Below are positions 11,071 to 19,703 of a stretch of 64,000 nucleotides of DNA, in pieces. The stretch is from Burkholderiaceae bacterium. GTDB taxonomy: Bacteria > Pseudomonadota > Gammaproteobacteria > Burkholderiales > Burkholderiaceae_C. Position 1 is the stretch's first letter. Every line of letters starts with the position of its first letter. The DNA lies in the NCBI GenBank assembly GCA_030654805.1, contig JAURWR010000069.1:1-64000 (forward strand), given 5' to 3'. Under the pieces are notes generated by a model, which worked only from the letters and a program-made list of their open reading frames with translations, was not told the DNA's origin and did not search any database. The position numbers and the translations under genes were made by a program.

Positions 11071-11100
11071 AAAAACAGCCCCCCCATGAAGGGGCATGTT
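11071..11100 (-). terminator. Probable rho-independent terminator downstream of senA
   Basis: Minus strand: aacatGCCCCttcatgGGGGggctgtttttccc, GC stem followed by T5, just after the 11111 stop. Confidence 0.6.
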
Positions 11101-11110
11101 CAGAGGCGAC

Positions 11111-12403
11111 TCAGGCGGTGCAACTGCGGAAGCCGCAGAACGGGTCGTCACGCTCGGGACGGTAGAAATTGCGGAATTTCGAGTGACGCAGGCGAGCACT
11201 GGTGGCGAACGACGCACCGCGCAGCACCTTGTGCGTGCCGAACCACGGCTGCGAATAGTCGCGGTACGGGTCGGCATTGAACCCGGGGTAGGCGCGAAAG
11301 GTGGTGGCAGTCCACTCCCAGACATCGCCCCAGCGGAATCCCCGCGCGGCGCCAGCATGCGCAGCGGCTTCCCACTCGACCTCGGTCGGCAGCCGACGCC
11401 CGGCCCAGCGGCACCAGGCGTCGGCCTCGTACCAGCTGACGTGAACCACCGGTCGATGCATCGGCAGATTGACCAGCGCACCGAAGCGCCGCTGCAGCAC
11501 GCCCTGACGCAGCTGGTCGACGTGGCGCGGCACGCGCCGACCCTCGCGCTGCACCCACTGCCATCCAGCAGCCGACCACCATCGCTCGTCGTCATAACCA
11601 CCGTCCTCGACGAACTCGGCGTACTGCGCCCAGGTCACGGCCTGCGCGTCGATCTCGAACTCGGGCAATGCCACCTCGTGTGCCGAAGCTTCGTTGTCGA
11701 AAACGAAACCGTCGCCGCGTGCCAGACCCAAGGTCCAGCGCATCGGCAGAAAAGTCAGCGGTGGACGCTGGGCCGCATGGACCCGGCCTGCTGCGGGCGC
11801 CAGCAGATCTGATCCGCAGCCATCGCCAGTGGGAACCTTCAGGCCCAACGTCTGCGCCATCATTGCGAAGGCTTCGCCGTGCATGTCTTCGTGAAACAGC
11901 GCAAGCCGGTGGAAATACAGCGCCGCATCCGGATCGTCGACGTCGGCATCGATCGCATCCAGCAGATCGAGCGTGATCTCCATCGTCTCGGCCAGGTAGT
12001 CCTTGGTGTGCTGCAGTCCGGGCAGATCGAGGAGCCAGCGGCTGTCGTGCGGCACGGCCGACGAGTCGTACCAGCTGTCGGCCTGCGGTTCGATCGATGC
12101 AAGCCGGACACCGGTCGGATCACACGCGGTGCCGCGCTGGCGCTGCACATGGCGACCGATCCAGTATTCCTGGAACCAGCCGATGTGGCCGGCCTCCCAG
12201 AGCGGCGGATTCAGTTCGGGACGCATCGGCACGCGCCAGCCCATGGCGTCGAGGCCGGCTTCGTAGACCGACAGCCAGCGCAACGTATGATTTCTGGCAT
12301 CCATCAGCGCCAGCGACAGCAGATCCTTGCTGGCGGTGCGCAACCAGGGCGAACGGGCATTGCCGGCGTCTCCACCGCATTTTTCCGACGCCTTCTTGTT
12401 CAA
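11111..12403 (-). CDS. senA: Selenoneine synthase SenA (EgtB-like DinB_2 + FGE-sulfatase fold); start TTG 12403 or ATG 12424
   Basis: LLSLALMDARNHTLRWLSVYEAG, PLWEAGHIGWFQEYW, LALFHEDMHGEAFAMMAQTLGL, C-term GDVWEWTATTFRAYPGF..LRGASFATSARLRHSKFRNFYRPERDDPFCGFRSC; divergent from a senB-like gene and selD. TTG at 12403 is preceded by GGAG at 5-nt spacing. Confidence 0.85.
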   Translation of the reverse strand: MNKKASEKCGGDAGNARSPWLRTASKDLLSLALMDARNHTLRWLSVYEAGLDAMGWRVPMRPELNPPLWEAGHIGWFQEYWIGRHVQRQRGTACDPTGVRLASIEPQADSWYDSSAVPHDSRWLLDLPGLQHTKDYLAETMEITLDLLDAIDADVDDPDAALYFHRLALFHEDMHGEAFAMMAQTLGLKVPTGDGCGSDLLAPAAGRVHAAQRPPLTFLPMRWTLGLARGDGFVFDNEASAHEVALPEFEIDAQAVTWAQYAEFVEDGGYDDERWWSAAGWQWVQREGRRVPRHVDQLRQGVLQRRFGALVNLPMHRPVVHVSWYEADAWCRWAGRRLPTEVEWEAAAHAGAARGFRWGDVWEWTATTFRAYPGFNADPYRDYSQPWFGTHKVLRGASFATSARLRHSKFRNFYRPERDDPFCGFRSCTA

Positions 12404-12439
12404 GTCATCTCCAGCTTCCGGCATGCCCACGTGACCACC

Positions 12440-13438
12440 ATGACCCGCCGGCCCACCGTGCTGATCGCAAGCCCCGCGCTTGCAGCGGCCAACAACGGCA
12501 ACTGGCAGACCGCATCGCGATGGTCCCGAATGTTGCGACCCGATTTTCACACCGAGGTGATCGGAGGCTGGCACGGCCAACCTTGTGACGTGCTGATCGC
12601 GCTCCATGCAAGACGTTCAGCCGACTCAGTCGCAGCCTACGTCGCCGCGCACCCGACGCGACCCTGCATCGTCGCGCTGACCGGCACCGACCTGTACCGT
12701 GACATACGCGACGACGCCTCGGCGCAGGACACGCTGCGGCGCGCCACGCACCTGGTGGTGCTGCAGGATCAGGGGCTCGCGGCCCTGCCACCGACATGCA
12801 GAGACAAAGCGTGTGTGATCTTTCAATCGGCGCCGCCACGCCAGCCGGTCCCACCGCCGAAGCGTGCGCTGCACGTGATTTTCGTCGGTCACCTGCGAGC
12901 CGAAAAGGACCCGCTGACGCTGTTGCGGGCCGCCGGACGGCTGGCGAACCGGAACGACATCCGCATCGACCTGATCGGAGACTCGCTGGACGACTCACTC
13001 GCCGAAGCAATTCGAGGCGGGCAGGCCTCGCTGCCCACCTTTCGCTGGCTCGGCGCACGCCCCCACGCAGACACTCGACGCCGCATTCAGTGTGCTCATC
13101 TGCTGGTCAACAGCAGCAGGATGGAAGGCGGCGCACACGTCGTTCTGGAGGCCGTGCAAAGCGGTACCGCCGTCTTGGCCTCGCGCATCCCCGGAAACAT
13201 CGGCATGCTGGGCTCCGCACATCAAGGCTATTTCGAGGTGGGCGATGATGCGAGCCTGGCTGCGCTGATCGAGCGAGCCCGCGACGATGCACCCTTCCTG
13301 GCGCGTCTGCGCGCCCAGGGCGAACAACGCTCTGCATTGTTTTCACCGGCAGCCGAACGACACCGGCTGCATCAACTGATCACTGCGGCGATGCAACGCA
13401 CGGCCATGCACGCCGAAGCCCCACAGGACAACCGATGA
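12440..13438 (+). CDS. senB: Selenosugar synthase SenB (glycosyltransferase); alternative GTG start 12431
   Basis: TVLIASPALAAANNGNWQTASRWSRMLRPDFHTEVIGGWHGQPCDVLIALHARRSADSV, characteristic SenB N-terminus; GT4-like C-term HLLVNSSRMEGGAHVVLEAVQSGTAVLASRIPGNIGMLG; ATGA overlap with selD. Confidence 0.85.
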   Translation: MTRRPTVLIASPALAAANNGNWQTASRWSRMLRPDFHTEVIGGWHGQPCDVLIALHARRSADSVAAYVAAHPTRPCIVALTGTDLYRDIRDDASAQDTLRRATHLVVLQDQGLAALPPTCRDKACVIFQSAPPRQPVPPPKRALHVIFVGHLRAEKDPLTLLRAAGRLANRNDIRIDLIGDSLDDSLAEAIRGGQASLPTFRWLGARPHADTRRRIQCAHLLVNSSRMEGGAHVVLEAVQSGTAVLASRIPGNIGMLGSAHQGYFEVGDDASLAALIERARDDAPFLARLRAQGEQRSALFSPAAERHRLHQLITAAMQRTAMHAEAPQDNR

Positions 13439-14502
13439 CTACCACCACACCCTCCGATCGCCCCGCCGCCCCGCGTCTGACATCGCTAGCCCATGGCGGA
13501 GGCTGCGGCTGCAAGATCGCTCCCGGCGTGCTCTCGCAAATCCTGAAGAGCAGCTCGGGATTTCCGATTCCGAAGGAGTTGCTGGTCGGCATAGAGACCG
13601 CCGACGACGCGGCGGTTTACCAGCTCAACGACGAGCAGGCATTGATCGCGACCACGGATTTCTTCATGCCGATCGTCGATGACCCGCGCGACTTCGGACG
13701 CATCGCCGCGACCAATGCCATCAGCGATGTCTACGCGATGGGCGGCACCCCGATCTTCGCGCTCGCACTCGTCGGCATGCCGATCAACGTGCTGCCGATC
13801 GAGACCATCGCCGCCATCCTGGAGGGAGGCCAAAGCATCTGCGCTGAAGCCGGCATCCCGATCGCTGGCGGGCACACGATCGATTCGGTCGAGCCGATCT
13901 ATGGCCTGGTCGTGCTGGGGCTGGTGCATCCAAGCCGCGTCAAGCGCAACGCGGATGCGAGACCCGGAGACAAGCTGGTGCTGGGCAAGCCGCTGGGCAT
14001 CGGCGTGCTGTCGGCAGCGCTGAAGAAGAACGCGCTCGGTCTGGAAGGCTACGCACAGATGATCGCCAGCACGACAAAGCTGAACACGCCCGGCGTCGAG
14101 CTGGCCCGGCTGGATGGCGTGCACGCGCTCACCGACGTCACCGGCTTCGGGCTTGCCGGCCATGCACTCGAACTGGCTCGCGGCGCAGGCGTGCGGGCGA
14201 TCATCGACTGGGACCAGGTGCCTCTGCTGGTGGGCGTGCGCGAACTCGCGGCCCAGGGCATGGTGACCGGCGCATCCGGGCGCAACTGGGTCAGCCACGG
14301 CCCACATGTCAACCTGCCGGCCGGTTTCGCCGACATCGATATCGCGCTGCTCAATGACCCGCAGACCAGCGGCGGCCTCCTGGTGTCGTGCCGCGCAGAC
14401 AAGGTGGACGAAGTGCTGTCGATTTTCAGGCGACAAGGGTTCGCGACGGCGGCCGTGATCGGCGAGGTGACAGACGGACCCGCGGGCTTGACCGTGCGCT
14501 GA
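13435..14502 (+). CDS. selD: Selenide, water dikinase SelD (SenC role in this cluster; Cys-type)
   Basis: LTSLAHGGGCGCKIAPGVLSQIL (catalytic Cys/Lys), TTDFFMPIVDDPRDFGRIAATNAISDVYAMGG; C-term LNDPQTSGGLLVSC. Confidence 0.95.
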   Translation: MTTTTPSDRPAAPRLTSLAHGGGCGCKIAPGVLSQILKSSSGFPIPKELLVGIETADDAAVYQLNDEQALIATTDFFMPIVDDPRDFGRIAATNAISDVYAMGGTPIFALALVGMPINVLPIETIAAILEGGQSICAEAGIPIAGGHTIDSVEPIYGLVVLGLVHPSRVKRNADARPGDKLVLGKPLGIGVLSAALKKNALGLEGYAQMIASTTKLNTPGVELARLDGVHALTDVTGFGLAGHALELARGAGVRAIIDWDQVPLLVGVRELAAQGMVTGASGRNWVSHGPHVNLPAGFADIDIALLNDPQTSGGLLVSCRADKVDEVLSIFRRQGFATAAVIGEVTDGPAGLTVR

Positions 14503-16106: not shown

Positions 16107-16781
16107 TTACTTGGTCTTCGTACCGACAACCTCGATCTCGACGCGGCGGTTCTTGGCGCGTCCGTCGGAGGACTTGTTGTCTGCAACAGGCTGCTTCTCG
16201 CCCTTGCCTTCGGTGTAGACGCGATTCTTTTCGACGCCCTTGCCGACCAGATAGGCCTTGACGGCTTCGGAGCGACGCACCGACAGTGCCTGATTGTAGG
16301 CGTCGGAGCCGACCGCGTCGGTGTGACCGACGGCGATGATCACTTCAAGGTTGATGGAACCGAGCTTGCTGACGACGTCGTCGAGCTTGGCCTTGCCCTC
16401 ATCCTTCAACACCGACTTGTCGAAGTCGAAGAATGCGTCAGCGGCGAAAGTGACCTTCTCGCTGGCTGGTGCAGCTGCAGCGGCCACGACTGGAGCAGCT
16501 GCTGCTGCCTTCGCTGGCGCCGCAGCAGGTGCGGGGGCAGCCGGCGCCGGAGCGGCCGCAGCCTTGGCCGCAGGCTTGAGGGCGCCATCACATTCAGCCA
16601 GCGCAGTAGCAGGCGTCCAGTTGGCATCACGCCAGCACAGTTCATTCGTACCGTTTTTCCACGGCAGACCGGTCACGTTGACCCAGTTATCCACAGCGGT
16701 TTGTTGCGCAAATGCGCCGGTCACCACCAACGTCATAGCGGCAGCAGCAAACGACGATGCCACCTTGTTCAACTTAATCAT
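16107..16781 (-). CDS. OmpA family outer membrane protein
   Basis: Signal peptide [26 protein letters not shown]; Ala/Pro linker; OmpA C-term [20 protein letters not shown]...[29 protein letters not shown]...NRRVEIEV. Confidence 0.9.
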
Positions 16782-17054
16782 GGTTTTCCTCTCGAGGGAC
16801 AGTGCAATCAAATGTGCAAAAAAGGTTCCGAACTGAGGCCGGAATTCGAGCGGCAATCGATATCTCTGCCTTAATTTGCCAGCGAAATCATTGTGCCATA
16901 GGGTATTCACGATGGCGCGCATCGCTAGGAATGCTCGTTTTTGGGGCGCCGTATGTTGCTGCGTCACCACAGCGACCGACACCTACAATCAGTGTTGATG
17001 GTCACGCGCCACCAACACCCCGCTTCATTCAGCGCACAGCGCCCCTTCACCAGC

Positions 17055-19703
17055 ATGAGCCAGTTCGCCAAGGAAACCCTCCCGATCAGTCTCGAGGAGG
17101 AGATGCGGCGGTCGTACCTCGATTACGCAATGAGCGTGATCGTCGGGCGCGCACTACCAGACGCGCGTGATGGACTCAAGCCGGTCCACAGGCGTGTGCT
17201 CTTCGCGATGCACGAGTTGAACAACGACTGGAACCGGCCTTACAAGAAGTCGGCTCGCATCGTGGGCGATGTGATCGGCAAGTACCACCCTCACGGTGAC
17301 CAGTCGGTCTACGACACCATCGTGCGGATGGCGCAGGATTTCTCGCTGCGCCACATGCTGGTCGATGGCCAGGGCAACTTCGGTTCGGTCGACGGCGACA
17401 ACGCGGCGGCGATGCGGTACACCGAAATCCGGCTGGCGAAGATCGCCCACGAAATGCTCGCCGATCTGGACAAGGAAACCGTCGATTTCGGGCCCAACTA
17501 CGACGGCAGCGAGAAAGAGCCGCTCGTCATGCCGAGCAGGCTTCCGAACCTGCTGGTCAATGGTTCGGGCGGCATCGCGGTCGGAATGGCGACCAACATC
17601 CCGCCGCACAACCTCAACGAGGTCGTCGACGCCTGCCTGCACCTGCTGAAGAACCCGGCCGCCACCATCGACGAGCTGATGGAGATCATCCCGGCGCCGG
17701 ATTTTCCGACGGCCGGCATCATTTACGGACTGAACGGCGTGCGCGACGGTTACCGCACCGGCCGCGGCCGTGTGGTGATGCGCGCCAAGTGCCATTTCGA
17801 GGACATCGACAAGGGCCAGCGGCAGTCGATCATCGTCGACGAGATCCCGTATCAGGTGAACAAGAAGAACCTGCTCGAGCGAATGGCCGAGCTGGTGCAT
17901 GAGAAGAAGCTGGAAGGCATCAGCCACATCCAGGACGAGTCCGACAAGGACGGCATGCGAGTCGTCATCGAACTCAAGCGGGGCGAAGTCCCCGAAGTGG
18001 TCCTGAACAACCTCTACAAGCAAACGCAGCTCCAGGACACCTTCGGCATCAACATGGTCGCGCTGGTCGACAACCAGCCCAAGCTGTGCAACCTGAAGGA
18101 TCTGATCGCCGTCTTCCTGGAGCATCGCCGCGAAGTCGTCACGCGCCGCACGGTCTATGAACTGCGCAAGGCCCGCGAACGCGGCCACGTGCTCGAAGGT
18201 CTGGCGGTTGCTCTGGCGAACATCGATGAATTCATCGAGACCATCAAGGCATCGCCAACGCCACCGGTCGCCAAGGCGGCGCTGATGAGCAAGAGCTGGG
18301 ATTCGTCGATGGTGCGCGAGATGCTCGCTCGTGCAGAAAGCGAAGCACCCGGGGGTCGCGAGTCCTTCCGCCCCGAAGGACTGCCGAAGAGCTTCGGCAT
18401 GCAGGCAGATGGCCTGTACCGTCTGAGCGACGATCAGGCCGGTGAAATCCTTCAGATGCGCCTGCAACGCCTGACCGGACTGGAGCAGGACAAGATCATC
18501 GGTGAATACAAGGAGGTGATGACCACCATCGCCGACTTGCTGAACATCCTGGCCACGCCCGAGCGTGTGACCTCGATCATTTCGGACGAACTGGCGGCGA
18601 TCAAGCAGGAGTTCGGGCAGACCAAGGTCGGCGTGCGACGCAGCAAGATAGAGCACAACGCGCAAGATCTGGGCACTGAAGACCTGATCACGCCGACCGA
18701 CATGGTCGTGACGCTCAGCCACACCGGCTACTTCAAGAGCCAGCCGCTGGCCGAGTACAGCGCGCAACGACGTGGCGGCCGCGGCAAGCAGGCCACGCAG
18801 ACCAAGGAAGACGACTGGATCGAGCAGCTGTTCATCGCGAACACGCACGACTACATCCTGTGCTTCACCAACAAGGGCCGCGTCTACTGGCTCAAGGTCT
18901 GGGAAGTGCCGCAGGGCTCGCGCAACTCGCGCGGCAAGCCGATCGTCAACATGTTTCCGCTGCTGCCCGGCGAGAAGGTCAATGTCGTGCTGCCGCTGAC
19001 CGGCGAGGCGCGTACTTTCCCGGCCGAGCGCTACGTCTTCATGGCGACCGCCAAGGGCACGGTCAAGAAGACCTCGCTCGATGAATTCAGCAACCCGCGC
19101 AAGGCCGGGATCATCGCCGTCGATCTGGACGAAGGCGATTTCCTGATCGGTGCAGCGATCACCGATGGCCAGCACGACGTGATGCTGTTCAGCGACGCCG
19201 GGAAGGCAGTGCGCTTCGACGAGAACGACGTGCGCCCGATGGGCCGCAACACCCGCGGCGTGCGCGGCATGATGCTGGAAGAGGCGCACAGCGTCATCGC
19301 CATGCTGGTCGCCGAAGACGAAACGCAGAGCGTGCTCACAGCGACGGTTAACGGATTTGGCAAGCGCACCAGCATCGTCGAGTACACCCGACACGGCCGC
19401 GGCACCAAAGGCATGATCGCGATCCAGCAAAGCGATCGCAACGGCAAGGTCGTTGCGGCCACGCTGGTTCGACCCGACGACGAGATCATGCTGATCACCG
19501 ACAAGGGCGTGCTGGTGCGCACCCGCGTCTCGGAAATTCGTGAGCTCGGCCGCGCCACGCAAGGCGTGACGCTGATCGCACTCGACACCGGTTCCACCTT
19601 GAGCGGCCTGCAGCGCATCGTCGAGAACGATGTCAGCGCCGAAGGCAGCACCGACACCCCTCCCGGCGACGACAACAGCGCGCCTCCCACCGAGACAACT
19701 TGA
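17055..19703 (+). CDS. gyrA: DNA gyrase subunit A
   Basis: [69 protein letters not shown] GyrA box. Confidence 0.97.

Follow-up and report, generated by a model that had tools for sequence, protein, structure and literature searches.

The three adjacent genes at 11111-14502 of this Burkholderiaceae contig raise the question of whether their host makes selenoneine by a dedicated pathway, as an earlier note made from the DNA letters had claimed. The window is the whole stretch of DNA that was analysed, 64,000 nucleotides in length. Judged from sequence, the three open reading frames (ORFs) very probably form a working selenoneine biosynthesis cluster. The cluster is real and correctly named, and it appears to encode a complete selenoneine pathway of an already known type. 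Chance is excluded, because three adjacent proteins each pass curated family cut-offs and the gene order senA, senB, selD (A/B/D) recurs in 27 of 80 related loci (GTDB). All three ORFs were found where the note had placed them, and the features of the locus are as follows.

11078-11095, minus strand: terminator-like hairpin and trailing T run, just 3' of the senA stop (site prediction)
11111-12403, minus strand: senA, selenoneine synthase, 430 aa, TTG start; predicted EgtB-fold iron enzyme
12404-12439, no strand: intergenic gap of 36 bp between the divergent senA and senB starts (from coordinates)
12440-13438, plus strand: senB, selenosugar synthase, 332 aa; predicted GT-B Se-glycosyltransferase
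13435-14502, plus strand: selD/senC, selenophosphate synthase, 355 aa, Cys form with GGGCGCK

The TTG start of senA is preceded by GGAG, 5 bases upstream. A longer senA ORF from the ATG at 12607 was considered and dropped; the start given in the earlier note is the better one, because close relatives in the genus start at an equivalent TTG or GTG. The overlap of the senB stop and the selD start (ATGA, 13435-13438) is present as described, with AGGA upstream of the selD start, and senB and selD are translationally coupled through it. The region holds seven terminator-like sites against 1.9 expected from shuffled sequence, and a single, weak promoter-like site on the plus strand (12264-12291) lies within senA.

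The neighbours of the cluster are a FecR/LysM protein, an HAD phosphatase, a CHASE2-type hybrid histidine kinase (assigned by reading the sequence), and a UbiG-like methyltransferase, an OmpA-like protein and GyrA, whose names were assigned by eye. The GyrA-like and OmpA-like genes (16941-19703 and 16107-16982) lie approximately 2 kb past selD. The context is that of an ordinary chromosome, with no mobile element seen nearby. FecR-like and kinase genes likewise flank the sen cluster in genome G001. The GC content of senA, senB and selD equals that of the window (66%). No plasmid record spans the sen cluster; the matches are short and partial, the longest inside selD. Recent plasmid transfer was rejected on these two grounds.

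Family calls for SenA, SenB, SelD, EgtB and GT4 were made with the curated NCBIfam cut-offs. The senA product scores 510.9 bits with the SenA model NF041186 (cut-off 420), and senB and selD are linked to its gene. Its best matches among solved structures are the SenA entries 8ryz and 8k5i (E 4e-114), with 50% identity to the crystallised SenA. The alignment shows that the iron ligands H73, H171 and H175 and the active-site Y380 are retained. These align with H51, H134, H138 and Y377 of the M. thermoresistibile EgtB, which we take to be the iron-site histidines and the tyrosine. This check is informative because relatives lacking the triad exist. The tree pairs the window SenA, with support, with that of G001, inside SenA and far from EgtB. 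The dN/dS between the two is 0.155, which shows purifying selection.

The senB product is likewise SenB and not a generic GT4, as the note had it. It scores 420.2 bits with TIGR04348 (cut-off 300), and its best solved structures are the SenB entries 8k5u, 8jjn and 8fbx. It is 53% identical to the Variovorax SenB and carries the same residues at N21, T24, H56, R59, T81, T83, K156, E229 and E237. Mutagenesis of the Variovorax enzyme has mapped the substitutions that abolish or strongly lower activity (PMC10891094); all of the residues concerned are conserved in the window except V157. Among the positions tested by mutation, the window protein differs at two, with glutamate (E155) for V157 and arginine (R207) for L209. 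Variants at V157 retain activity only partly (PMC10891094), and a glutamate at this position was found in every relative checked. The SenB signature N20/T23/E231 and K158 with the EGGAHV motif (PMC10891094) is present in the window SenB.

The third ORF is a Cys-type SelD, with 527.7 bits for NF002098 (cut-off 299), 422.4 bits for TIGR00476 (cut-off 125) and the motif GGGCGCK. The source genome is an assembly of 131 contigs, 100% complete with 3.87% contamination. A genome search found one selD; two further matches are weak and under the cut-off. The absence of selenocysteine machinery, first noted for the window, extends to the assembly: no selA was found and no selB match reaches the cut-off. 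A match to the tRNA-Sec model (48.1 bits, gathering threshold 47) was dropped, as ARAGORN gives tRNA-Ser(tga). The selenocysteine trait (selA, selB and tRNA-Sec) is thus missing from the genome. The suggestion that selD may serve the sen pathway alone was not supported. The genome encodes the tRNA 2-selenouridine synthase MnmH/SelU (contig C127, 11522-12430; 356 bits, cut-off 220) and so carries the selenouridine trait. Since there is no second selD, selenophosphate is probably shared with tRNA 2-selenouridine and has at least two users.

The search for egtD that the note had proposed located EgtD on the same contig, C127 (22766-23656; 371 bits, cut-off 291), as a source of hercynine. No more than about 10-14 kb separates egtD from mnmH, also in other genomes of the genus, and this recurrent pairing argues against contamination. 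Of the sequence outcomes named in advance as contrary to the pathway (clustering with EgtB, a generic GT4, a missing egtD), none was found.

In the proposed pathway, SelD would use selenide and ATP to form selenophosphate. SenB would then place the selenium onto a UDP-sugar (our best guess is UDP-GlcNAc) to give a selenosugar. The EgtB-related iron enzyme SenA would use oxygen to join the selenium of the selenosugar to C2 of hercynine, which EgtD, encoded on another contig, would supply. Selenoneine would result after loss of the sugar. Selenophosphate would also go to MnmH/SelU, which would put selenium on the wobble uridine of tRNA. The role of selenoneine is most likely redox protection. 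The three sen reactions are established for homologs (summarised in PMC9814287; see also PMC10891094). We infer that they occur in the source organism from what is seen directly, namely gene identity and order, active-site residues, the presence of egtD, egtB and mnmH and the absence of selA and selB. Three points count against this: V157E and L209R in SenB relative to Variovorax, the level of contamination, and the location of egtD and egtB on other contigs.

A related pathway to a different selenometabolite, in which SenB makes the selenosugar and SenA works on an acceptor other than hercynine, in the manner of OvsA in ovoselenol formation, is improbable. One scaffold is common to SenA, OvsA and EgtB, and genomes G005, G010 and G011 of the genus have SenB-SelD pairs (loci L076, L077 and L078), with the same three unrelated genes next to them in every case. 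No SenA was found in these genomes, where the best matches to the SenA model are pieces of EgtB or FGE-like proteins (G005 and G010 are incomplete). The route there may end at the selenosugar, or the selenosugar may feed something else. Set against an acceptor other than hercynine in the window are the high score with the SenA equivalog model, the availability of egtD and the greater distance of OvsA (173 bits, compared with 385 for SenA).

Solitary SenB proteins with all catalytic residues occur at L071 (G012, contig C14) and L072 (G008, contig C92). No SenA, EgtD or SelD over the cut-off was found in G008 (96% complete), so its SenB may use an acceptor other than selenophosphate. The protein at L088:2492-3808 (G027, contig C6) passes the SenA cut-off with 427 bits, yet its motif DMYPFMSTLQF is OvsA-like, and the protein is probably OvsA. 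The SenA model by itself does not separate SenA from OvsA.

Still less likely is that senA encodes a sulfoxide synthase of the EgtB type beside a generic GT4, with the locus serving ergothioneine or an unrelated sugar pathway. SenA and EgtB have a common fold and the EgtB model does match, but its score of 259.8 bits is below the cut-off of 360, whereas the SenA cut-off is passed. The SenB reaches 19-113 bits with generic GT4 models, whose cut-offs are 260-800. A separate EgtB (contig C123, 546 bits) is encoded in the genome, and the window SenA is 28% identical to it, far less than to the crystallised SenA. That the cluster is a decaying remnant, like those sister genomes whose SenA lost the metal site (six in the genus, some of them without senB), is barely credible given three intact ORFs in the window, the catalytic residues kept and the dN/dS against G001.

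The SenA homologs of those six genomes (G003, G004, G006, G009, G012 and, on contig C63, G014) are 71-78% identical to the window SenA. The proteins lacking the triad are encoded at the following positions.

L062:9917-11215, triad-less SenA (G003)
L063:8166-9461, triad-less SenA (G012)
L064:7804-9102, triad-less SenA (G014)
L065:7392-8678, triad-less SenA (G009)
L066:2443-3789, triad-less SenA (G004)
L067:2801-4003, triad-less SenA (G006)

All six pass the SenA cut-off with 465-474 bits (three were re-scored). The third histidine is replaced by leucine and the tyrosine by aspartate, and in four of the six the second histidine is replaced by arginine. They form one supported group in the tree, sister to the pair of the window and G001. 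Their pairwise dN/dS of 0.13-0.17 is the same as that between the window and G001, and they are therefore not drifting pseudogenes. An Azt/Znu-type metal ABC transporter adjoins the gene in all six genomes, in part or in full; its family scores in G003 are under the equivalog cut-offs, and contigs that end early show part of it. The gene is divergent from selD in G003, G012 and G004. No SenB over the cut-off was found in the genome of G003 (99% complete).

Beyond the genus the pattern recurs. A SenA homolog without the full residue set is present in 25 of the 80 GTDB loci, and nine or more changes are required to explain the loss of the triad or tyrosine across a 95-row tree. Such loci (L130, L138, L141, L142, L159, L169, L176, L183, L190, L193, L194, L195, L196, L198 and others) occur in Piscinibacter, Rhizobacter, Polaromonas, Caldimonas and Schlegelella, and senB is adjacent in none of them. 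The cultured species Piscinibacter defluvii and P. aquaticus are among the carriers. The gene next door is senB for 35 of the 63 intact SenA proteins, but for none of the 28 altered ones (Fisher p 5e-8, relatedness ignored). In phylogenetically independent pairs, senB adjacency and residue state agree in about six of seven and disagree in none (p 0.03). When whole genomes were searched for the loci without adjacent senB, SenB was present for 24 of 27 intact and 10 of 22 altered SenA (p 0.0016), with the caveat that absences at genome level may reflect incomplete assemblies. In several altered-SenA genomes there is a second sen cluster, whose SenA keeps the motif intact. For seven of the ten with SenB, a second SenA adjoins that SenB and its HE-M-H motif is intact; in the remaining three, two SenB matches hold a TGA and one SenB is without an adjacent SenA. 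Altered pairs from outside the genus give mixed dN/dS values, which are often higher (0.06-0.40), so some of these proteins may be decaying.

The altered homologs, which came out as SenA by score wherever this was tested, look like repurposed SenA proteins. On balance we lean slightly towards a history in which, once senB was lost or a second complete sen cluster was gained, SenA of this lineage repeatedly turned into a conserved protein that has neither the iron site nor the tyrosine. Binding or sensing of selenoneine, hercynine or a metal may then be its function in place of selenoneine synthesis, and the window would keep the ancestral catalytic state. Within the literature searched, no paper on SenA proteins without the iron site was found. 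These descendants are more surprising than the cluster itself, and they bear on the annotation of the SenA family. Used alone, the curated SenA score predicts too many selenoneine makers. Since it is passed by some close relatives that lack the iron site, a residue check and the presence of senB are needed when producers are counted. If the conversion is true, it can be studied inside one genus, with the catalytic form of the window beside converted relatives.

With this window, selenoneine synthesis is assigned to a group of Burkholderiales that seems to be little characterised and is represented here mostly by metagenome assemblies. The named relatives of its SenA are Burkholderiales, mostly metagenome-assembled; the closest are 'Pseudomonadota bacterium bin10', a Rubrivivax MAG, 'Burkholderiales bacterium PBB1' and Ga0077547, followed by Rhizobacter, Piscinibacter, Rhodoferax and Polaromonas. 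The genome also points to a selenium economy without selenocysteine, in which a single selD supplies an antioxidant and a tRNA modification.

MnmH/SelU and SelA are the other users of selenophosphate that depend on SelD; here MnmH is encoded elsewhere in the genome, and SelA and SelB are missing. OvsA (PDB 8ux5), the selenoxide synthase of ovoselenol biosynthesis, is a related selenium-using enzyme of the same superfamily as SenA, distant from the window protein by the bit scores given above. EgtB has in common with the window SenA the fold, the three-histidine iron site and the tyrosine aligned with Y377 of the M. thermoresistibile enzyme. It differs in that D416 of that enzyme, presumably a contact to gamma-Glu-Cys, is a tyrosine (Y414) in the window SenA, which scores under the EgtB cut-off in a genome with a separate EgtB. 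The closest known system is the senA, senB and senC cluster of Variovorax paradoxus DSM 30034 (Kayrouz et al. 2022, as summarised in PMC9814287). The window has the same three protein families with the catalytic residues kept; it differs in V157E and L209R of SenB, and its SenA sits outside the tree branch that holds the crystallised SenA.
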